Shown: positions 13,791 to 59,594 of the stretch, piece by piece | Numbering within the stretch: the first letter of the stretch is position 1 | Layout of the letters: each line of letters opens with the position of its first letter | Assembly (NCBI GenBank): GCA_017433725.1 | Contig: JAFRGQ010000005.1 | Span: forward strand, 62,001-126,000 | Source: Lachnospiraceae bacterium | Lineage (GTDB): Bacteria; Bacillota; Clostridia; Lachnospirales; Lachnospiraceae | Length of the DNA: 64,000 bases | Direction: 5' to 3' | Position numbers and translations under genes: made by a program | Notes under the pieces: model-generated | The model's database searches: none | Told to the model about the DNA's origin: nothing | What the model saw: the letters and a program-made list of their open reading frames with translations, nothing else

Positions 13791-13862
13791 GTCGCAGACG
13801 TGTGCATTGGAAGGCGCCTTGGCGCCGCGCATGTCGCAGCAAGAACGCCGAGGCGTTCTTGA
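13791..13862. repeat. Repeat family B, full copy (B1): tandem palindromes
   Basis: Contains GGCGCCTTGGCGCC (stem GGCGCC), AAGAACGCCGAGGCGTTCTT (stem AAGAACGCC) and an outer GCAGAC/catgtcgc pairing. The same arrangement occurs at 55112-55180. It lies directly after the stop codon of the dehydrogenase/amylase gene. It is a REP-like non-coding palindromic unit. Confidence 0.7.
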
Positions 13863-29230: not shown

Positions 29231-30421
29231 CTAAATATGAAGATCAACAAATAGATTCTTTATCTCATCACTTTTTTTCCTGTCCTGAGAGAGCTTTTTC
29301 AGAGGATTCCCTCTGACTAAACCGATATGCAGATATCGCATAATCTGGTATACCCAGGCAAAAGGTCTTAGCAGCAGGTTTTTCCTGGCTGCCGGCATGC
29401 TGTATTTGCTGCTGTAGTTCAACCTGCCAAGGAATCCTATGAGTCCCTGGGATTCTGACATAAGCTTTATGCCTCTGTTCTCAAATGCACCTTTTTTTCC
29501 GAAATCCCCCTCACTAATCAGGTATTCCAGAAGCCGTCTGCACGAGGAAGAATCAGCATCCCTGCACCATGTCAATTCATTATTGAGCCCAAAACATTTC
29601 TGACAAACTTTTGTCATGACTTTTGCCAGATCCTTCAAATGCACTTTTTCTGCTTCCGCACAAAAGTACTCTTCCCAATACTGATCTGACAGATAATGTT
29701 CCGCATAAACCATCCAGTCGAGCAAGTGCCTGATTCCTACCCCTTCGCGCATATGCCCCGCAAAATGAATCAGAAGTGTCATCCCTTTTTGAAGGGTCGG
29801 CAATACAGGAAAATAGTATTTATCTACTTCTACATACCCGACGTTGTCAAGTCCCTGACTGAAGAAATCAATCAGCGCCTGTGATTCCGGACTGCCATCC
29901 ATTTTTGTGCCGCCCGGTCTTTTGTGTAACTCAAAAACAACATCGTCTTTAGTTAATACAACATGATACTCAGCCTTATCAAGTTCTTCAGTTTTTGAGT
30001 AACCGTTATCCAGAAGCAGTTGATAAACACTTTCATATTCATCCTCTCTGACCAGAAAATCAATATCCCCGCTTTTACGGAGCTCCGGTACAGGATAAAG
30101 CACGGCATTGGCCATGCCCTTCATGATTGCAAAGTCAAAACCGGCTGAAGAAAGCAGATTGACCAGCTCCTGTTGGCAGTACATCAACATGTACCAACTG
30201 TTATATTGCTCAATGACCGACTGTGACCATTCCCGGTCTAAATCGGTATCATTAAACGAACCTTTTCTTTTTTTGTAGATCTCATATCCGAGAGGTGCCA
30301 CCGCCTGCTGGCTCATATCCTTATATATTGCCCACCAATCCGGTTCAGCTGAAAGATCAGCTGCACCACCGCTCAAGGCCTCCTTTATGATCTCTATTTC
30401 ATCCCGTTCTGTCCGATTCAT
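29231..30421 (-). CDS. Nucleotidyltransferase-fold protein (NTP_transf_5 family)
   Basis: A 396-aa protein of the PF14907-type family. FAIMKGMANAVLYPVP followed by RKSGDIDFLVRED gives the GDxDxLV-like pol-beta nucleotidyltransferase metal site, with VVFELHKR as the third acidic strand. Members occur in polysaccharide clusters and in lasso/RiPP clusters; no reaction is established. It is the last gene of the leftward polysaccharide arm, 44 bp after the flippase, with GGGGGAAAT before the ATG. A RiPP locus lies 24 kb to the right, but there is no physical link. Confidence 0.75.
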   Translation of the reverse strand: MNRTERDEIEIIKEALSGGAADLSAEPDWWAIYKDMSQQAVAPLGYEIYKKRKGSFNDTDLDREWSQSVIEQYNSWYMLMYCQQELVNLLSSAGFDFAIMKGMANAVLYPVPELRKSGDIDFLVREDEYESVYQLLLDNGYSKTEELDKAEYHVVLTKDDVVFELHKRPGGTKMDGSPESQALIDFFSQGLDNVGYVEVDKYYFPVLPTLQKGMTLLIHFAGHMREGVGIRHLLDWMVYAEHYLSDQYWEEYFCAEAEKVHLKDLAKVMTKVCQKCFGLNNELTWCRDADSSSCRRLLEYLISEGDFGKKGAFENRGIKLMSESQGLIGFLGRLNYSSKYSMPAARKNLLLRPFAWVYQIMRYLHIGLVRGNPLKKLSQDRKKSDEIKNLFVDLHI

Positions 30422-49999: not shown

Positions 50000-51157
50000 T
50001 TAATTCAGTCTGGATAACAGATCAAATCTCCCAAAGTCTTTATTCAATAAGCACTCCCGGATTTCCAGGCTCTCTTTCGAACAGTTCTCAGCATTTGAGT
50101 AATACTTTTCATGCAGCTCGCAGAATCCTACAAAAACGGCTTCCCGCAGCTGTTTTTCACAATAAGCCATTCTATTTCCGCTGAGCAGAACATGCGAGAG
50201 GAACAATTCATATAAAGGAGCAGGGTCTATGTTCTGCAGCTTCATACAATCATACATTAACTCTGCAATGTAGAATGTTTCGATGTTCCTAGGCCTGCCC
50301 TTAGAGGCAAAGGAAAGGCTTGCGCCGTGTCTCCTGTAATAATAGACGACATCCTCTATCGTTCCGCATTTCCCTGCCAGAGGATACATCAGAAAAGAAA
50401 CTATTGTATCTTCATATAAGTACCCTTCCGGGAATTGAATCGTACGGAACAGTTCTGTTTTAAAAGTCTTCATCCATGGGAATCCGGTGAGTACATACAG
50501 AGGCGACTCTACTATTTCCGTTTTATGGAACTCCGAATCGCGGTGAAGCTTACCATCCTGTAAATTGAGATAATTCCCTTCAACTATATCCAGATCGTTG
50601 GCGTATGCATAGCTTAACAGATTCTGTATTGCATTTTTGGCAAGCAAATCATCTGAGTCCAAGAGCAATGTATAATCTGATGAACAATAGTGCAAAGCTG
50701 TATTGCGCGCACCGGAAAGTCCTCTGTTCTCCTGCGTAATGATTTTGATATTAGGATGCTTCTCGAACCTTCGCAGCCGCTGTGCCGTGTCATCCGTAGC
50801 CCCGTCATTGACAACGATAGCCTGCCAGCTGTATTCTGTTTTCTGCGCTAATAAAGACCGCAGACATCTCATTAAATAATCAGCGCAGTTGTACGTCGGA
50901 ATCACAACAGTAAGGTTATAATGCACTTCCCCTTTGTTCCAGTTCTCATCCCGTTCAATAAATACACTACTATCCGTTAGTTTCGGATGCGCATTATGCA
51001 TGATTTCCTGTGCCATCGAATATGTCAAATCCGATTTTTTTGAAAATGGTCTTCTGAGCAAAGCGTTGACTGTTTTCCCAAGATGCAGTCTTTTCAGTAC
51101 TTTCAGTGTATAAAGCATACTTTTATCACAGTATGTATTAATGCTCTCAAAACTCAT
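50000..51157 (-). CDS. Glycosyltransferase family 2
   Basis: A 385-aa protein. After about 75 N-terminal residues, LTVVIPTYNCADYLMRCLRS, VVNDGATDDTA and LLLDSDDLLAKN define a GT-A core. The C-terminus carries YLYEDTIVSFLMYPLAG. AAGGAGCGGATTTC precedes the ATG. It is divergent from the ABC exporter. It is a likely polysaccharide enzyme rather than part of the RiPP locus, although glycosylated RiPPs exist. Confidence 0.87.
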   Translation of the reverse strand: MSFESINTYCDKSMLYTLKVLKRLHLGKTVNALLRRPFSKKSDLTYSMAQEIMHNAHPKLTDSSVFIERDENWNKGEVHYNLTVVIPTYNCADYLMRCLRSLLAQKTEYSWQAIVVNDGATDDTAQRLRRFEKHPNIKIITQENRGLSGARNTALHYCSSDYTLLLDSDDLLAKNAIQNLLSYAYANDLDIVEGNYLNLQDGKLHRDSEFHKTEIVESPLYVLTGFPWMKTFKTELFRTIQFPEGYLYEDTIVSFLMYPLAGKCGTIEDVVYYYRRHGASLSFASKGRPRNIETFYIAELMYDCMKLQNIDPAPLYELFLSHVLLSGNRMAYCEKQLREAVFVGFCELHEKYYSNAENCSKESLEIRECLLNKDFGRFDLLSRLN

Positions 51158-51184
51158 GAAATCCGCTCCTTATAAGTGTTATAA

Positions 51185-51212
51185 TTGAACAATCATGCTA
51201 TTATTATATACA
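51185..51212 (+). promoter_or_regulatory. Promoter of the ABC exporter gene
   Basis: TTGAAC (51185-51190), 16 bp and TATACA (51207-51212) lie 77 bp before the TTG start codon of the exporter. Confidence 0.55.
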
Positions 51213-51288
51213 ATCACGTTGAGATTTGGAAGTCTCTGCTTTTTCATAACCGGAAAATCACTCACACTGCAGACACAGGAGGACGTCT

Positions 51289-52989
51289 TTGAAGAAATAC
51301 TGGGAACAAATCAAAGAATTATACGGAAAGCGGGATCTGGCCTACGCCAGCATCTTCTGGCTCTTCTCACAGGCAGGACCGTATGCAAAACAATTATCAG
51401 TGAAACTGGCTATCAGTACATTTACACTTGCAATGGGCTTCGCAGGCACTATCGTCAGTAAATATATAATTGATGCAACTACCTCCGGCTCCCTCAACTG
51501 GACCTATGTCACATACATGATTCTTGCTGCCGTCTTTACAATTCTATTCTCAGCTGTAGCGGACATATTCGATTCCTATATCAGCGAAAAATTTGAGTTC
51601 GGTATGCGTTGTGATATGTTCGACCAGATTCAGACAGGAGTATGGAACGAGCTTTCGAAGTACCATAGCGGTGATATCGTCACGCGTTTGACCACAGACA
51701 TTTCCACGATTTCGTCCGGACTCATTTCAATTATTCCATCCGCCATTATTATGGGCTTAAGGCTTCTTATATCCTTCTGCATTCTTTTCTATTTTGACCG
51801 TTGGCTGGCGATCTTTGCTCTGTTCGTCGCACCTGTCGGTGCTATATGCGCACTGCTCTATCGCAAAAAATACGGTTATTATTACAACAAACTCCGCGAC
51901 ACAGAATCTTCTTACCGAACTTTCATGCAGGAAAATCTGTCGAACATCGCTGTTGTTAAAACCTTCCAGTTAGAAGAAGACAACATGACTTACATGAAAA
52001 CCATAAGAAGTGAGCGTATGAGTCTGGTCATGAGCAGTTCCAGGCTCAGTGCCCTGATGTCCGGGTTCATAAGCCTGGTATACAGGACTGCCTATGTGGT
52101 GGCCTTCTGCTGGAGTGCATACCGGATCTCCACCGGTCAGATCACTTACGGAACAATGACTGTCTTTCTGTCTCTGGTCTCACAGGTCCAAGGTTCTATA
52201 TCTTCACTCGGTTCGACTATACCGGAACTCTACCGGATGCTCATCTCTGCCAGACGCATCACGGATATCGTGGATATACAAAATGAGGACTATAAGGATA
52301 TGACTTCTGTTCCCGAACAGGTCTCGGTGGAAATAAAAGATATGACATTTGCCTACGACAAGAAGAAAAATATACTGGAACACCTGACTCTTTCCGTAAA
52401 GCCGGGTGATATAGTGGGCATTGTCGGACACTCCGGTGCGGGCAAGACTACTCTGATACGCCTGCTTCTCTCACTGCTCAAACCGGATGCAGGCAGCGTT
52501 GAGTACATCGATGAACACGGGAACAGAGAGAGTGCACAGCCCGCCTCCAGGCGTTTTATATCTTATGTACCGCAGGGAAATACTCTGCTCTCCGGTACGA
52601 TTGCACAGAACCTGAGAATGGGCAAAAAAAATGCCTCCGAGGATGAACTCTGGGAGGCACTTCGTATGGCAGATGCAGATACATTTGTAATGAAAACAGA
52701 AGACGGGCTCGACACAAGACTGACAGAGAAAGCCGGAGGACTATCGGAAGGACAAGCCCAGAGAATCGCCATCGCCAGGGCGCTCATCCGCAACAAGCCT
52801 CAGCTCATTTTGGATGAGGCGACAAGCGCGCTGGACGAAGAAACTGAATCAAAGATACTCTCACGAATAACGAAAAGTTACGGAAAGACCATCTTCATCA
52901 TCACCCACAGACGGTCCATGCTGCGCTACTGCAACCGTGTAATCGAACTCGGCGACGACGCAACTGCCACGATCAGGAACCTGGAATAG
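51289..52989 (+). CDS. ABC exporter (fused permease and ATPase), probable peptide exporter of the RiPP locus
   Basis: A 566-aa half-transporter. Residues 1-320 form the six-helix exporter domain, including KYHSGDIVTRLTTDISTIS. The ATPase has GHSGAGKTTLIRLLL (Walker A), the Q-loop in SYVPQGN, the signature as GGLSEGQAQRIAIARAL, LILDEATSALDEE (Walker B) and the H-loop ITHRRSM. No C39 peptidase domain is present. It starts with TTG behind AGGAGG (51278-51283), six bases away. Homodimeric exporters of this kind accompany RiPP and lasso clusters. It is convergent with the protease/kinase/precursor genes, so assignment to the locus rests on proximity. Confidence 0.85.
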   Translation: MKKYWEQIKELYGKRDLAYASIFWLFSQAGPYAKQLSVKLAISTFTLAMGFAGTIVSKYIIDATTSGSLNWTYVTYMILAAVFTILFSAVADIFDSYISEKFEFGMRCDMFDQIQTGVWNELSKYHSGDIVTRLTTDISTISSGLISIIPSAIIMGLRLLISFCILFYFDRWLAIFALFVAPVGAICALLYRKKYGYYYNKLRDTESSYRTFMQENLSNIAVVKTFQLEEDNMTYMKTIRSERMSLVMSSSRLSALMSGFISLVYRTAYVVAFCWSAYRISTGQITYGTMTVFLSLVSQVQGSISSLGSTIPELYRMLISARRITDIVDIQNEDYKDMTSVPEQVSVEIKDMTFAYDKKKNILEHLTLSVKPGDIVGIVGHSGAGKTTLIRLLLSLLKPDAGSVEYIDEHGNRESAQPASRRFISYVPQGNTLLSGTIAQNLRMGKKNASEDELWEALRMADADTFVMKTEDGLDTRLTEKAGGLSEGQAQRIAIARALIRNKPQLILDEATSALDEETESKILSRITKSYGKTIFIITHRRSMLRYCNRVIELGDDATATIRNLE

Positions 52990-53087
52990 TCTTATCCGGT
53001 TTCCGCACGTCAACCCGACACGAAGCTTAAGGTTCGCGTCAGCTGACAAAATCCCGCAAAATTCTGATTCGAACGTTTCGACGATTA

Positions 53088-53567
53088 TCAAGATCTGTCG
53101 GGAAAAACAGATCTCTTAACATCACCGATTTTCTGCCGCAGCTTTCTGTATCGGACAAATGCAGGCCTTTTCCACTTGCTGCTCAGCCATTTGAGCCCTT
53201 TCTCACGCTGCTCGTCACAGTCAAGTATATGCAGCTTTCCATCTCTCTCATAGGAAACCGCAAGGCCGAAAACGGCAGACCTGGGGATCGGAGCATCCGG
53301 ATGCTCTGCGTTATCTCCCCAGGTCATGACCGTATGACCATCGTCAAGAGTTTTATATACCCTGTGACAGACATAAGCCCCGTCCATTCTCTTAAATAAA
53401 ACAACGTCTCCGGGAATCGGCTTTCTTTCAATAGGAACGAAAGTGACAGGATCTTTATAAACGCGAATCAGCGGCTCCATGCTGAGTGATGTCAAGCTTG
53501 TTGTAATAGGGATTTTTGTGCCTTCCTCAGCGAGGCGTCTCCACTCTTCAAGAGAAAGCTTGACCAT
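53088..53567 (-). CDS. Soluble S24/S26-family peptidase, candidate leader protease
   Basis: A 159-aa protein without a TM helix. TSLSMEPLIR carries the signal-peptidase Ser box (SMxP), GDVVLFKRMDGAYVCHRVYK gives the second box with His where classical type I enzymes have Lys, and MTWGDNAEHPDAP is the GDN box. This Ser/His pattern is that of ER-type (S26B) peptidases. Loss of the membrane anchor suggests a cytoplasmic peptide substrate, such as a RiPP leader (inference). The ATG at 53567 has GAGGTAAA upstream and lies 10 bp after the HprK-PqqD stop, so the two form an operon. Confidence 0.8.
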   Translation of the reverse strand: MVKLSLEEWRRLAEEGTKIPITTSLTSLSMEPLIRVYKDPVTFVPIERKPIPGDVVLFKRMDGAYVCHRVYKTLDDGHTVMTWGDNAEHPDAPIPRSAVFGLAVSYERDGKLHILDCDEQREKGLKWLSSKWKRPAFVRYRKLRQKIGDVKRSVFPDRS

Positions 53568-53577
53568 AGAATTTACC

Positions 53578-54699
53578 TCAGTCTTTCTCAATTACGCCAT
53601 ACTCATCGAGTTTTGTAAGCAGATTATCCAGATCCTTTGCCGCAACACTCTCCTCCACCTCATATTCATCGAGGATAGCAGTGAGAAGATCATCTCTGGA
53701 AACAGGCGCCTGCATCTTTTCCCATATAAAAGCAGCCACACCACTCAGCAGGACCGTCCCCTTGAATTTTCCGATATTTTCGTCAGTCGGCATCAGAATC
53801 TGCTCACCTGCAATATTTCTCAATACAAAACCATCTTTAGCCTTCATATCAGTTTTCTCCTTTTTATAGTCTCCTATTTCCAGTGCTTTTCTGAGTTCTA
53901 CAGCTGATTCCGGATCGGGTCCGGAAAAACCTCTCAGAATCTTAGCACGTGAAGCCAGCTTCGCAATATTTGCCATCTGGATGACCGCCGTTTCGGTATC
54001 CCACATGGGGATAAAGCACTCCTGATACAAAAGTCTCCGCTTCTGTTCATGGCTCATCTCCCTGATATAATTCGATTTTTCCGACCGCCGGACCTCAATT
54101 ATGGTATTAAGCGGATAATGCACGTTTCGGAAACACTTTTCTTTTCCGTCCCACGGCACGCCATATACCTCCAGATTCCTTACATTTATCAGAGGCCTGT
54201 CTCCGCTTATCAGTTCTGCTCCGAACGCTTCTTTCCATGCTTCTGCTCTGGTAGATTTTCCTGTGCCGGACGGTCCGCTGAACGCTATGGCCTGCTCTTC
54301 CAGCTGTATACAGGCAGAATGCAGAGAGACATATCCGTGTCGAACCAGCAGACATTCCAGAGCCATACGGATCAGAACCTCTTCCAAAGAATACGGTTCA
54401 TCAAATCCTATATCTTCCGTTGCTTGTTCCGAATATGTTCTTTGACCAACCAATTTCAGATACTTATAGTCATCACTAACCACAAGACCCATCTGATCGT
54501 CGAAGACGGCATGATAGAACCATCCCCCGTCGATCTTATGCTGTATTATATAACTCGACCTTACCTCTATTCCCTGCGGGGCTTCTTCCTTCGAGATGAC
54601 CAGAGAGACATCCGCAGGCTTTGGCTCTGTCTTAAAATTTTCAAATGACGGAAGGACGATTTCAGATTCAAATACTATGTCTGCAATTTGATAATACAA
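53578..54699 (-). CDS. HPr-kinase-like protein fused to a PqqD (RRE-type) domain
   Basis: A 373-aa two-domain protein. Residues about 115-280 form an HprK-like P-loop kinase: VSLHSACI, AFSGPSGTGKST (Walker A), ISGDRPLI and YGVPWDGKEKCF. Residues about 283-373 are a PqqD-type winged helix (GFVLRNIAGEQILMP ... TVLLSGVAAFIWEKM ... ILDEYEV). PqqD domains bind RiPP leader peptides, and HprK-like kinases phosphorylate some lasso precursors. The start is taken as TTG at 54699 because AGGGAGGAG lies eight bases upstream; the in-frame ATG at 54750 has no ribosome site. Confidence 0.85.
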   Translation of the reverse strand: MYYQIADIVFESEIVLPSFENFKTEPKPADVSLVISKEEAPQGIEVRSSYIIQHKIDGGWFYHAVFDDQMGLVVSDDYKYLKLVGQRTYSEQATEDIGFDEPYSLEEVLIRMALECLLVRHGYVSLHSACIQLEEQAIAFSGPSGTGKSTRAEAWKEAFGAELISGDRPLINVRNLEVYGVPWDGKEKCFRNVHYPLNTIIEVRRSEKSNYIREMSHEQKRRLLYQECFIPMWDTETAVIQMANIAKLASRAKILRGFSGPDPESAVELRKALEIGDYKKEKTDMKAKDGFVLRNIAGEQILMPTDENIGKFKGTVLLSGVAAFIWEKMQAPVSRDDLLTAILDEYEVEESVAAKDLDNLLTKLDEYGVIEKD

Positions 54700-54786
54700 C
54701 GCGCTTTTCTCCTCCCTGTCAACAGCCGTATTTTGGCATAGCCTGCTCATTACCGGGCTGCAAAACCCATTCTATCGAAACTAAAG

Positions 54787-54818
54787 AAGGGCACCTCAAC
54801 CGCAGTTCAAGTGCCCTT
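54787..54818 (-). terminator. Hairpin after the RiPP precursor gene, partial terminator
   Basis: AAGGGCAC (54787-54794) and GTGCCCTT (54811-54818) pair, with further TGAAC/GGTT pairing inside. On the reverse strand it is followed by CTTTAGTTT, a weak T-rich tail. It lies 14 bp after the precursor stop and about 90 bp before the kinase gene, so it could limit read-through and keep precursor mRNA in excess. Confidence 0.65.
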
Positions 54819-54832
54819 TGTTTTCAATATGC

Positions 54833-55006
54833 TTAGTTCTTGTCCGGATTGCAGCCGTGTGAACTGCCATGATAAGTAACTACTCTTCCGCAACCTCTGC
54901 CGTTGCCCCAGTCACCGTGATCCTTGCCGCCTGCCGAAGCGACTACAGACTTTGAATAATCAAAATTAAGACGATCTGCATCTGGCGTTGAATATTCTTT
55001 TTTCAT
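54833..55006 (-). CDS. RiPP precursor peptide candidate (57 aa)
   Basis: A short ORF from ATG 55006 to TAA 54833, with AAGGAGG five bases before the start. The N-terminal part (1-27) starts MKKEYSTPDADRLNF and contains a YxxP motif (Y5-P8) like those bound by RRE domains in lasso leaders; it ends VVASAGG. The C-terminal part (28-57) is Gly-rich: nine Gly, four His (30, 46, 50 plus none in the tail; three certain), one Trp (W33), Cys39, Cys52, and segments KDHGDWGNGRGCG and VTYHGSSHGCNPDKN. It has its own promoter and lies between the radical SAM gene and the HprK-PqqD gene. Cleavage after GG27 is possible but unproven. Confidence 0.8.
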   Translation of the reverse strand: MKKEYSTPDADRLNFDYSKSVVASAGGKDHGDWGNGRGCGRVVTYHGSSHGCNPDKN

Positions 55007-55056
55007 TGTTGCCTCCTTATATCAATATCAATCCTTCTATCTTTGTTATCTAACAC

Positions 55057-55085
55057 ATATTATCACAAAGAAAATCCTTCTACAA
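55057..55085 (-). promoter_or_regulatory. Promoter of the precursor peptide gene
   Basis: On the reverse strand TTGTAG (55085-55080), exactly 17 bp and TAATAT (55062-55057) lie 51 bp before the precursor ATG; an overlapping TGTGATAAT extended -10 is also possible. This allows precursor expression independent of the radical SAM gene. Confidence 0.55.
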
Positions 55086-55111
55086 CTCAATTTTTATACT
55101 TTTTATTCTTC

Positions 55112-55180
55112 ATCGCAGACATGCGCAGTGGAAGGCGCCTTGTCGCCGCATGTCGCGTCAAGAACGCCGAGGCGTTCATG
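55112..55180. repeat. Repeat family B, full copy (B2)
   Basis: Contains GGAAGGCGCCTTGTCGCCGC and AAGAACGCCGAGGCGTTC, as in B1 (13791-13862), with an additional GACATGCG/CGCATGTC-type pairing on the reverse strand. It directly follows the radical SAM stop codon and overlaps its last bases, as B1 directly follows the dehydrogenase/amylase gene. Confidence 0.7.
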
Positions 55181-56324
55181 AATTGCATTCTTCGATTTCA
55201 CGTATACCATGCTTAACCAGAAACCTTGCCCGTTCACAGATCTTAGTCGGACGTTCTCCGAGAATTGCATACTGCGTCATATTTGCAGGACAGTTATCAC
55301 ACACTTCGTAATAAGAGCATCCATCACATTCCGCCACTCGCGGCCAATTATTGCAGGCGGTATTGATCTTCTGCCATGCAGCCTCAAGTCCCTCCTTGAG
55401 CGGCAGCATTTCAACCTCCGTCAGTCGGTTGCAGGGATACATTTTACCGTCCCAGGTTATTACGAAACCCGATCGACCTCCGCCGCATTGAACCCCGCGT
55501 TTTGTGCGGTCAGTCGATCCGCCACCCGGGGGCGGGAGCAGTTCGTCGGGTACCTCTCTCCAAGTTTGCCCTTCCATCTCCTGAAGTGCGCGGTAAATAT
55601 GAACATATTCTTCCGCAGTCAAATCAAAATCAATTCCGCTTCTGCCGGTATCTTCCCTCGGATCGAACAGTTCTGTATTAATTCTTACATCCCGACATAA
55701 ACTCTTTGCCAGCCTGACGGTATCTGTCATCGAATCTCTCAGAAAAACATTGGGCGTTATCGCTATCCGGAGCGGCAGTCCGGCCTCGAAAACTCTTCTG
55801 ATATTCTTCAAAACCTTATCAAAGACCTTTCGTCCGGTGACCTTTTCATAGGATTCGTCATCATTACCGTACAGTGTGATCTGAATACCGGCAGGCATAT
55901 GCTTTTTGAAAAAACCGATCCATTTCTCATCGAGCAACTCACCGTTCGTCAGGACATTGACCTCACACCCGAGGCTGTGAAGATACAGAAACAATTCCTC
56001 AAATCCCGGATATAGCAGACATTCGCCGCCGGTCAGTGTCGCCTGATACATGCCCAGTTCATATGCCTGACGGATCAGATCTTTCCACTGTTCCGTCTTT
56101 AACGGAACGCGGCCGCGCATTTGCTCCGTTGATAAATGCGTATAGCACATCTTGCAGTCAAAATTACATAGCGGAGTGAGTTCAAATTGTCCGTGAATCG
56201 GAACTCCCTTTATGCGTGCCCTCTGCTCCAGATACTCGGCAAAGTCATCAAAGGTACTCTCCTTCCCTCCACTCTTCTTTCTCAGATTATCCAGGAACTC
56301 CAGTCCGTTTTTTGGGTTTTCCAT
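55176..56324 (-). CDS. Radical SAM/SPASM peptide maturase
   Basis: A 382-aa enzyme. The radical SAM cluster motif is CNFDCKMC (C53, C57, C60), followed by TLTGGECLLYPGF. The C-terminal SPASM domain has several Cys, including those in MYPCNRL, CDGCSYYEVCDNCPANM and KICERARF, to bind auxiliary Fe-S clusters. Such enzymes make thioether, C-C or epimerised residues in RiPPs. It has no N-terminal RRE of its own, which fits a separate PqqD domain on the neighbouring kinase. GAGGCGA precedes the ATG. It is the nearest upstream gene to the precursor. Confidence 0.88.
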   Translation of the reverse strand: MENPKNGLEFLDNLRKKSGGKESTFDDFAEYLEQRARIKGVPIHGQFELTPLCNFDCKMCYTHLSTEQMRGRVPLKTEQWKDLIRQAYELGMYQATLTGGECLLYPGFEELFLYLHSLGCEVNVLTNGELLDEKWIGFFKKHMPAGIQITLYGNDDESYEKVTGRKVFDKVLKNIRRVFEAGLPLRIAITPNVFLRDSMTDTVRLAKSLCRDVRINTELFDPREDTGRSGIDFDLTAEEYVHIYRALQEMEGQTWREVPDELLPPPGGGSTDRTKRGVQCGGGRSGFVITWDGKMYPCNRLTEVEMLPLKEGLEAAWQKINTACNNWPRVAECDGCSYYEVCDNCPANMTQYAILGERPTKICERARFLVKHGIREIEECNS

Positions 56325-56347
56325 AAATTATCGCCTCTTTCCAATCT

Positions 56348-56393
56348 ATGAAGACGAGTGTCATCTTGCACGAGTATTGCGCAATGAAGAATG
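56348..56393. repeat. Repeat family A, copy A4 (internal deletion)
   Basis: ATGAAGACGAGTGTCATCTT joins directly to GCACGAGTATTGCGCAATGA, so the CGCGTATCATAGACTCACGT block seen in A1/A3 is missing. It lies between the PlsC-like and radical SAM genes. Confidence 0.55.
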
Positions 56394-56396
56394 CTC

Positions 56397-57161
56397 TTAT
56401 CCTGCTATTCTCTCATCCTCAGTGATATTTTCCCTCCGCTTCAGAAGCATCTCATATATCTTCTCCCTCGTATAAGCCCCAAGGCGCTTCCTCTCCTCTT
56501 TTCCGAGCTCCTCCGGAATGATTGCTTTCCCGTACTCTACCGTCACATGCCTCCGCTTAACACGCGGATAGTTTTTTTCAAATATATCCGCCGATCCGGT
56601 TATTGCGATCGGTACGATCTTGCAACCGCTTCGCCTGGCTACATTGAAACTGCCTTCATGAAAAGGCAGCATATCCAACTCGCTCTCACCCTGGCTGAAT
56701 GTCCCCTCCGGGAAAATGCACATTGAGATACCCGCTTTTACATTTTCGGTAGCCTCATTTATCGTGGCGACGCCCTGTCTGAGATTTGCCCTGTCAAGAA
56801 AGAGGCAGTGGAGACGTCTCATCCATATGGAGAGCAGGGGAACCCGCGCCATCTCGATCTTGGCGACGATTCCCGTCACATCCGGAAACAGGCTGTAATT
56901 AATGACAGTGTCAAAGATGCTGTTGTGGTTGCAGATGTAAAGCACCGCCTCATGTTCCGGTATGTTCTCCCTGCCGATCACGGTGAGTCCGGTACCGGCG
57001 AGAAACAGAATTATCTTGAAGATGCCCTGCACCATGCGGAGGGATACAATGTCGCTGAATCGGGGGTATTTCCTGCCGATCAGCCACAGGATTCCGAGCA
57101 TCGGAATGAACACTATTAAATAGAGGATTACCGCTAACAGACAGAGGATAGTTCGAAGCAT
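56397..57161 (-). CDS. plsC: 1-acyl-sn-glycerol-3-phosphate acyltransferase (PlsC-like)
   Basis: A 254-aa membrane-bound acyltransferase. An N-terminal TM helix pair is followed by ICNHNSIFDTVIN (HX4D catalytic motif), ARVPLLSIWMRR, and IFPEGTFSQGESEL (acceptor-binding FPEGT). It makes phosphatidic acid from lysophosphatidate. The role is housekeeping and unrelated to the RiPP genes downstream. AAAGGAAAG precedes the ATG. Confidence 0.9.
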   Translation of the reverse strand: MLRTILCLLAVILYLIVFIPMLGILWLIGRKYPRFSDIVSLRMVQGIFKIILFLAGTGLTVIGRENIPEHEAVLYICNHNSIFDTVINYSLFPDVTGIVAKIEMARVPLLSIWMRRLHCLFLDRANLRQGVATINEATENVKAGISMCIFPEGTFSQGESELDMLPFHEGSFNVARRSGCKIVPIAITGSADIFEKNYPRVKRRHVTVEYGKAIIPEELGKEERKRLGAYTREKIYEMLLKRRENITEDERIAG

Positions 57162-57325
57162 AGAACGCGCTTTCCTTTCGGAATAATGATACCGAATTAA
57201 CCGTTCGGCATCTTAATCATGAAAAAATTGTATCACACCCCTGATTATTATTCTATGTATGACTCAAAAAATACTCTGTCAGGTGGCCTCTCACGCGAAA
57301 AGAACCGTTCTCACGGTGTTTTATA

Positions 57326-57334
57326 TGGTATACT
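57326..57334 (+). promoter_or_regulatory. Extended -10 promoter of the zinc-ribbon trio
   Basis: TGG-TATACT (57326-57334) lies 48 bp before the ATG at 57383. A TTCTCA 15 bp upstream could act as a weak -35. Confidence 0.45.
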
Positions 57335-57382
57335 GTTTGCATGCGGTAAATGCTTTACATTTCATTTTTCGGAGGTCATCTC

Positions 57383-58159
57383 ATGTACTGTGCAAACTGC
57401 GGAGCAGAAATAACCGAAAAAGATGCATACTGTCCCTACTGCGGCGTAATGAACGCCCGTGCCGCCGAGCGGGAATATATGGAAAAGCTGGAAGATATCC
57501 GGGAGGATACGGAAAGACTGGGAGAAGAGTCGGGCAAGGAGAGCCGACGGGGTATGAGGACCGCCGGCAAGAAGGCTTTGAAGATATTTGCGATCGTCGC
57601 AATCATTATCCTGGGCCTCACATCCGTTTTCATATATCTGGAGACCGGTTTCCTGCGCGGTGACGCTAAGACAGCAAGAGCGGAAGCGGCCTTTAAGGAA
57701 AAGTATTTTCCGAAGCTCGACGAATACTACGCCGCCGGGGATGATGATGCAACTGCGGCATATTTACAGGAAATCGGTTCTCAGGATGGCGCCGCTGTCT
57801 TAAGCGGCTGGAAGCACTATATGTATATGAAATACTATATGGATTACGCAAATGTCTGCGGGGTCCGTAACAGGGAGCTCGATGATGATTTCCGGAAATA
57901 CGACTACGAGCTTGTTTTATACGATGGTATTCAGCTGATCTATGAGACGGACATCGTCGGATATCAGGGTATGACGGCGGCGGAAAAAGAGAAGGTACGG
58001 GGATATCAGAGAGAAGCCGAAGAAATATTTGAAGAGTACTTTTCTCTCAGCAAATCCGACCTCGACAAAATCCACGAATCATCCATAGACGAAGGGAATT
58101 ATCTCTACAGATCCAAAATCAGAGAATGGGCTGCCAAGACGGGAGGTGAAAACAAATGA
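57383..58159 (+). CDS. Zinc-ribbon membrane protein, first of a coupled trio
   Basis: A 258-aa protein. The N-terminus is a zinc ribbon (MYCANCG ... YCPYCGV). A charged linker (about 25-65) precedes a single TM helix (about 66-90, IFAIVAIIILGLTSVFIYL), and the remaining 165 residues are a helical, acidic domain that should face outside. GGAGGTCATCTC precedes the ATG; the in-frame ATG at 57350 lies within the promoter leader. The stop overlaps the next start. No known function; zinc-ribbon/TM proteins of this type are common in Clostridia as hypothetical proteins. Confidence 0.78.
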   Translation: MYCANCGAEITEKDAYCPYCGVMNARAAEREYMEKLEDIREDTERLGEESGKESRRGMRTAGKKALKIFAIVAIIILGLTSVFIYLETGFLRGDAKTARAEAAFKEKYFPKLDEYYAAGDDDATAAYLQEIGSQDGAAVLSGWKHYMYMKYYMDYANVCGVRNRELDDDFRKYDYELVLYDGIQLIYETDIVGYQGMTAAEKEKVRGYQREAEEIFEEYFSLSKSDLDKIHESSIDEGNYLYRSKIREWAAKTGGENK

Positions 58160-59569: not shown

Positions 59570-59594
59570 GGCAAGAACGCCGAGGCGTTCTTGA
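59570..59594. repeat. Repeat family B, half copy (B3)
   Basis: Only the AAGAACGCC-GA-GGCGTTCTT palindrome of B1/B2 is present, 20 bp before the aldo/keto reductase start. The GGCGCC half is missing. Confidence 0.6.

Follow-up and report, generated by a model that had tools for sequence, protein, structure and literature searches.

Five neighbouring genes in a 64,000-nucleotide stretch of Lachnospiraceae bacterium DNA (the window) form a locus that probably makes a ribosomally synthesized and post-translationally modified peptide (RiPP) resembling the linear polyphosphorylated peptides (LPP). Its core would be both modified by a radical S-adenosylmethionine (SAM) enzyme and phosphorylated on Ser, the leader would be cut off by a peptidase, and the product exported. 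An earlier note on this DNA had proposed a compact RiPP locus here, and its interpretation as a whole is supported by the sequence comparisons described below. The genes lie at the expected coordinates: on the minus strand the order is radical SAM/SPASM gene, precursor, HprK-PqqD fusion and peptidase, while the exporter gene is convergent on the plus strand.

55176..56324, minus strand: radical SAM/SPASM peptide maturase, 382 aa (Pfam, NCBIfam matches below cut-off, Cys columns, SkfB structure)
54833..55006, minus strand: candidate precursor peptide, 57 aa (ribosome site, low nucleotide divergence, leader relatives)
53578..54750, minus strand: HprK-like kinase (about residues 1-298) fused to a PqqD/RiPP recognition element (RRE) domain (about 299-390) (Pfam, profiles, AlphaFold)
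53088..53567, minus strand: soluble Sec11/SipW-type signal-peptidase homologue, 159 aa, with S29, H68 and D85 (invariant residues, SEC11C match)
51289..52989, plus strand: MsbA-like ABC exporter, TTG start, no C39 peptidase (Pfam, NCBIfam)
54773..54829, minus strand: RNA hairpin between the precursor and kinase genes (minimum free energy and shuffles, identity with a near relative)

The cluster is more than a chance assembly, as all five genes are syntenic in the near relative uncultured Lachnospiraceae RUG12161 (locus L032), in which the arrangement is identical and the radical SAM protein 91% identical. The radical SAM protein, used as query in a genome scan, brought up 25 loci, several of them cut by contig ends and some of which also trained the family profiles; by these profiles a kinase was found in 19, PqqD in 18, a peptidase in 8, an exporter in 8 and a nucleotidyltransferase in 4. 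Loci L033-L036 (radical SAM 41-55% identical) hold the kinase-PqqD fusion, the peptidase and precursors, with exporters seen in L034-L036. The earlier note had staked its reading on finding the small open reading frame (ORF) together with the radical SAM and HprK-PqqD genes in other genomes, and this holds: precursors sharing the leader stand beside radical SAM and kinase/PqqD genes in L032-L036, L066, L068 and L069. Moreover, in L066 (9710-11575) and L067 (695-2560), which are one piece of DNA (99.7% over 4.3 kb) and were counted once, the HprK-like kinase and the radical SAM/SPASM enzyme form a single 621-aa ORF, which is followed by precursor and PqqD genes; L066 is without peptidase and exporter, and its contig ends there.

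We also examined a kinase-centred sample of 29 loci of 3-4 kb, the best of 42 matching genomes among 200 searched. A radical SAM gene was present in 13, a peptidase in 11 and both in 2; the two thus occur mostly in different kinase loci, which makes the combination of the window rarer in this sample. In longer stretches both were found with the kinase in L068, L069, L079 and L082, and a nucleotidyltransferase is adjacent in L033, L038, L043, L068, L069, L079 and L082. The same-genus genome G209 has no close radical SAM protein at E 1e-50; its LPAAT homologue is 41% identical and has unrelated neighbours, and no clean empty site could be read there. On a short contig of the same genome (L082) a distant radical SAM gene (30%) accompanies nucleotidyltransferase, peptidase, kinase and exporter genes.

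The 57-aa ORF does lie between the radical SAM/SPASM and HprK-PqqD genes with a strong ribosome site, as first described, AAGGAGG standing 5 nt ahead of its ATG. The predicted precursor consists of the leader MKKEYSTPDADRLNFDYSKSVVAS and a 33-residue variable part with two Cys. For comparison we used 15 precursors from eight loci (the window, L033-L036, L066, L068 and L069), leaving out the nearly identical copies from L032 and from further cuts of the same genomes. Their common leader displays Y/F..P followed by a Ser at +19 from the Tyr/Phe (12/15) or at +20 (3/15), and none of the leaders contains Cys. Behind the Ser, 34 of 532 residues are Cys (6.4%, against a background of 1.86% in the larger ORFs of these loci; binomial p 1e-9), 14 of the 15 precursors having at least two. 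Among the eight precursors with ungapped leaders, mean pairwise identity was 0.67 in the leader and 0.24 in the core. Searched against 16,270 frame segments from the compared loci, the leader profile picked out relatives at E 2e-17 to 3e-4, 12 of which are its own seeds. One L033 precursor sits 5.6 kb behind the kinase. The precursors of the window and L032 differ at 4 of 171 nt, three of the changes being silent, versus 111 of 1146 for the radical SAM gene, 33 of 477 for the peptidase and 63 of 762 for LPAAT. When seven to eight precursors were compared with curated families none scored over a cut-off, the only matches being weak ones to tryglysin and StsA leaders. A second candidate precursor at 57219-57413 (MKKLYHTPDYYS...) was dropped as a chance ORF, its leader matching at E 1.9 and its counterpart in L032 being out of frame.

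A second precursor branch, whose members are longer, carry an IAxxC motif behind the leader and roughly four Cys, and end in FxS, is found in many radical SAM and kinase loci (L007, L009, L010, L012, L018, L043, L045-L050, L052, L055, L056 and L065). Fourteen of these 16 precursors end in Ser, although nine were profile seeds (5 of the 7 non-seeds end in Ser), and 14 of the 16 have a kinase in their locus. Phosphate would here go to the C-terminal Ser, the site reported for known lasso kinases (PMC10368454) and so for paeninodin-type lasso peptides. In L035 (6532-9735) and L036 (7977-10994) two radical SAM genes are accompanied by three or four distinct precursors, which suggests that the maturases are substrate-tolerant.

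The radical SAM protein matches Pfam Radical_SAM with 79.1 bits, and SPASM with 19.0 bits, under the cut-off of 21.5. Ten Cys (53, 57, 60, 280, 298, 333, 336, 342, 345 and 363) are kept in 12 of 12 aligned relatives; three form the radical SAM motif C53xxxC57xxC60 and the other seven belong to the SPASM part, so that two auxiliary clusters are expected. The NCBIfam matches to PqqE, AlbA and SkfB were all far below cut-off, and the closest solved structure was SkfB (6efn, E 1e-17). Regarding membership among sactipeptides or ranthipeptides, none of the displayed matches to curated maturase or precursor models reaches its cut-off; the enzyme motifs and the Cys-rich cores are nevertheless compatible with the thioether chemistry of those classes.

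In the fusion protein, the PqqD domain is above the Pfam cut-off (47.7 bits), and a 12-sequence PqqD profile matched TfuB1, TbiB1, 9x90 and 9x8z with E 3e-9 to 6e-5. The family libraries recognise the kinase part poorly (HprK_rel_B at E 3.7e-5, far under cut-off), and a single-sequence Protein Data Bank (PDB) search with it matched no HPr kinase; a 16-sequence profile matched HPr kinase 1ko7 in the PDB with E 0.0011. His144, Ser161, Gly164, Lys165, Ser166, Thr167 and Asp184 are unchanged in 16 of 16 sequences. For the lasso peptide kinase BsfK the Asp pair D186-D187 is described as important in the accessible part of PMC10368454; the window's kinase keeps most of the motif named there, with Gly183 in place of the first Asp. 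The AlphaFold model of the fusion has a mean predicted local distance difference test score of 85.8 and a predicted template-modelling score of 0.83, and ends in strand-strand-strand-helix-helix-helix, which matches the order of three strands then three helices given for RREs in the accessible text of PMC12710340. In the window and L032-L036 this domain is part of the kinase protein; L066, L068 and L069 have it as a discrete protein.

The peptidase ORF spans 53088-53591 on the minus strand, the likely start being ATG 53567 and the alternative TTG 53591. It had been taken for an S26-type protease; that it is a soluble signal-peptidase homologue stands, and its type can be refined to Sec11/SipW, since a 14-sequence profile matched SEC11C in the PDB with E 2.7e-8. 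A single-sequence PDB search gave no match, and TIGR02228 scored 41.2 bits, under its cut-off of 51.85. S29, H68 and G84-D85 are invariant in 14 of 14 sequences. The exporter, likewise convergent and TTG-started as described before, has AGGAGG ahead of its start, and its L032 counterpart also begins with TTG, preceded by GGAGG. Its Pfam domains are ABC_membrane and ABC_tran, the best NCBIfam match being MsbA, whose 256.5 bits stay below the equivalog cut-off of 602. No C39 peptidase was among the 21 families listed by the Pfam search, and leader removal would thus fall to the separate peptidase.

The hairpin at 54773..54829 has a minimum free energy of -31.5 kcal/mol (z -3.0), a value matched by 2 of 200 shuffles, and its innermost stretch is identical in L032. 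The terminator scan made no call there; the hairpin is possibly a partial terminator or processing site, and may set an excess of precursor. Promoter and terminator scans were uninformative, with 6 promoter-like sites versus 6.1 in shuffles and 2 terminator-like sites versus 3.1.

Among the described classes the closest relative of this cluster is, judging from its gene content and leader, the LPP and not the lasso peptides; the earlier remark that it does not fit the best-known RiPP classes was a fair one. LPP were first described in 2026 from the lpp cluster of Paenibacillus alginolyticus (PMC13381572), the source for what follows on them. LPP clusters lie inside capsular polysaccharide loci; LppK phosphorylates core Ser3 several times; LppS, with catalytic residues S29, H68 and D93, cuts after T-1 only if LppB is present, and poorly without LppK; and the leader motif is YxxPxVLxHQxIxFETxxS, with the Ser at +18 from the Tyr. 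The window shares with them a signal peptidase I (SpI)-like, SipW-type peptidase next to an RRE, an HprK-like kinase, an MsbA-like exporter, a YxxP leader with a Ser close to where the core begins, a variable core, surroundings of polysaccharide genes and, among the proteins scanned, the lack of a lasso cyclase; the peptidase residues S29 and H68 are even numbered exactly as the catalytic ones of LppS. Of the joint roles proposed before, binding, phosphorylation, cleavage and export are thus paralleled by LppB, LppK, LppS and LppD (PMC13381572), whereas the radical step has no counterpart there: the window has a radical SAM/SPASM enzyme, and the term "Radical SAM" occurs 0 times in the accessible text. 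Also, the RRE is discrete in LPP and fused to the kinase in the window. Since a discrete RRE, an adjacent nucleotidyltransferase and the full leader motif are lacking in the window, we have not filed the cluster as LPP, though it would work like one with a radical step added.

Paeninodin-like and Bsf lasso clusters similarly have an HprK-like precursor kinase (BsfK acting on core Ser3; PMC10368454), a PqqD-type RRE (B1) and often a nucleotidyltransferase and exporter; the window has a radical SAM enzyme and an SpI-like peptidase instead of cyclase and B2. Neither a macrolactam cyclase nor a B2 cysteine peptidase was found among the 8 proteins scanned at 50003-57413 (no genome-wide search was made), and with no cyclase among these genes the lasso peptide reading was set aside. 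Sactipeptide and ranthipeptide systems (SkfB, AlbA, PapB) share the radical SAM/SPASM maturase, the full set of SPASM Cys and a Cys-containing core; the window differs in that its enzyme has no N-terminal RRE by Pfam, and in the added kinase and SpI-like peptidase. The SynChlorMet cassette, which we take to comprise the HprK-like ScmC and the radical SAM proteins ScmE and ScmF (models from NCBIfam), likewise places an HprK-related protein beside radical SAM/SPASM proteins; the scores, 62.6 bits for TIGR04251 and 14 bits for TIGR04249, are far below the cut-offs of 400 and 125. The open-licence literature, preprint servers not covered, yielded no report of an HprK-like kinase and a radical SAM enzyme sharing one RiPP locus; PMC4289311 has both terms but for different classes.

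The probable pathway, in a provisional order of events, is as follows. The PqqD/RRE domain, fused to the kinase, would bind the YxxP leader of the precursor, and the radical SAM enzyme would modify the core, most likely by forming a bond that starts at one Cys or at both, as Cys is the one enriched residue of the cores; this bond could be a thioether, another linkage, or a plain disulfide with the radical step elsewhere, which look alike at sequence level. The HprK-like kinase would phosphorylate the conserved Ser where leader and core meet (+19 from the Tyr), much as LppK acts on a Ser in a similar position in LPP. The Sec11/SipW-type peptidase would remove the leader by a cut beside this Ser, most likely between VVA and S. 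Signal peptidases have small residues at -1 and -3. This rule makes that site the likelier one, while a cut three residues before the Ser, as described for LPP, would fall between SV and VAS. The peptidase-free exporter would then secrete the product. More speculatively, the leader might come off under the control of phosphorylation, a gating reported for LPP (PMC13381572), so that only radical-modified peptide would be released.

Several observations weigh against this reading. The genes, their motifs, the recurrent neighbourhood and the conserved leader with its variable core are plain observations; the reactions, their order, the product and its role are predicted from these. The conservation of the Ser is partly circular, because the leader profile contains that column and 12 of the 15 precursors were its seeds. 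In the stretches compared, 17 of the 25 radical SAM loci have no peptidase and 6 have no kinase, and a close radical SAM protein (E 1e-50) occurs in just 6 of 397 family genomes, that of the window included. With respect to LPP as described in the accessible text of PMC13381572, the invariant Asp of the peptidase is D85 here versus D93 in LppS, the nearest PF14907 nucleotidyltransferase gene is 23 kb away and not adjacent, the leader beyond YxxP (VLxHQxIxFET) is absent and the Ser stands one residue further on. Finally, the first Asp of the BsfK pair is Gly in most relatives, only D184 being invariant (16/16). This last point, with the six loci lacking a detected kinase, would suit a radical SAM RiPP (a sacti- or ranthipeptide, or a cyclophane) in which the HprK-like domain is just an RRE scaffold or regulator and the precursor is not phosphorylated; considering the invariant His144, Walker A motif and Asp184 and the Ser that precursors retain at a fixed distance, we regard this as unlikely.

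That the radical SAM gene might be an unrelated neighbour of an ordinary LPP or lasso-type phosphopeptide locus is very unlikely, given that it recurs beside kinase/PqqD genes in many loci and forms one protein with the kinase in L066, even though kinase-PqqD-peptidase loci without a radical SAM match exist (e.g. L074-L077) and the LPP paper, as far as accessible, names no such enzyme. With a chance leader-like ORF lying nearby at 57219-57413, one could also suppose that the small ORF is untranslated or is no substrate, the enzymes acting on another peptide or protein. We regard this as very unlikely: the ORF has a strong ribosome site and a leader family found beside the enzymes, it has diverged from L032 at only 4 of 171 nt against 8-10% in neighbouring genes, and the 57219 ORF, unlike it, is out of frame there.

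As to the genomic setting, several glycosyltransferase-like genes lie left of the exporter, two of them assigned by Pfam or similar by eye, and a nucleotidyltransferase gene was found in the polysaccharide region:

29231..30421, minus strand: NTP_transf_5 nucleotidyltransferase, 23 kb off (PF14907, 117.9 bits)

LPP clusters contain such a gene, and its role as a pathway partner is possible but unproven. The host assembly is a 2.66-Mb draft, 76.8% complete. On its contig C21 (L071:9304-11765) there is a second set of kinase, SpI-like peptidase and nucleotidyltransferase genes, with no radical SAM match within the 20 kb compared. RUG12161 carries a further cluster (L037:383-10149) with PqqD, radical SAM, kinase, three ABC transporters and small ORFs; one transporter is 70% identical to that of the window and one small ORF has a double-Gly-like leader. 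A repetitive extragenic palindrome-like sequence, AAGAACGCCGAGGCGTTC, is found in the window at 13841-13862, 55160-55181 and 59573-59594, the middle copy overlapping the 3' end of the radical SAM gene; the host genome has 52 exact copies, versus 0 for the reversed control.

More broadly, it is conceivable, and we advance it only tentatively, that these loci represent a clostridial RiPP class whose precursor undergoes both radical C-H chemistry and Ser (poly)phosphorylation. An RRE, in some cases part of the kinase protein, would organise the two, and the kinase-radical SAM fusion would be the extreme form. Two chemistries reported apart in the literature searched, radical SAM maturation and HprK-type phosphorylation, would be joined here, and the LPP family of 2026 would extend to anaerobic gut and rumen Clostridia. 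The comparison also yields a sequence rule for finding precursors and a candidate substrate with two Cys and one candidate phosphorylation Ser, while the kinase-radical SAM fusion makes the coupling of both activities directly testable within one protein.

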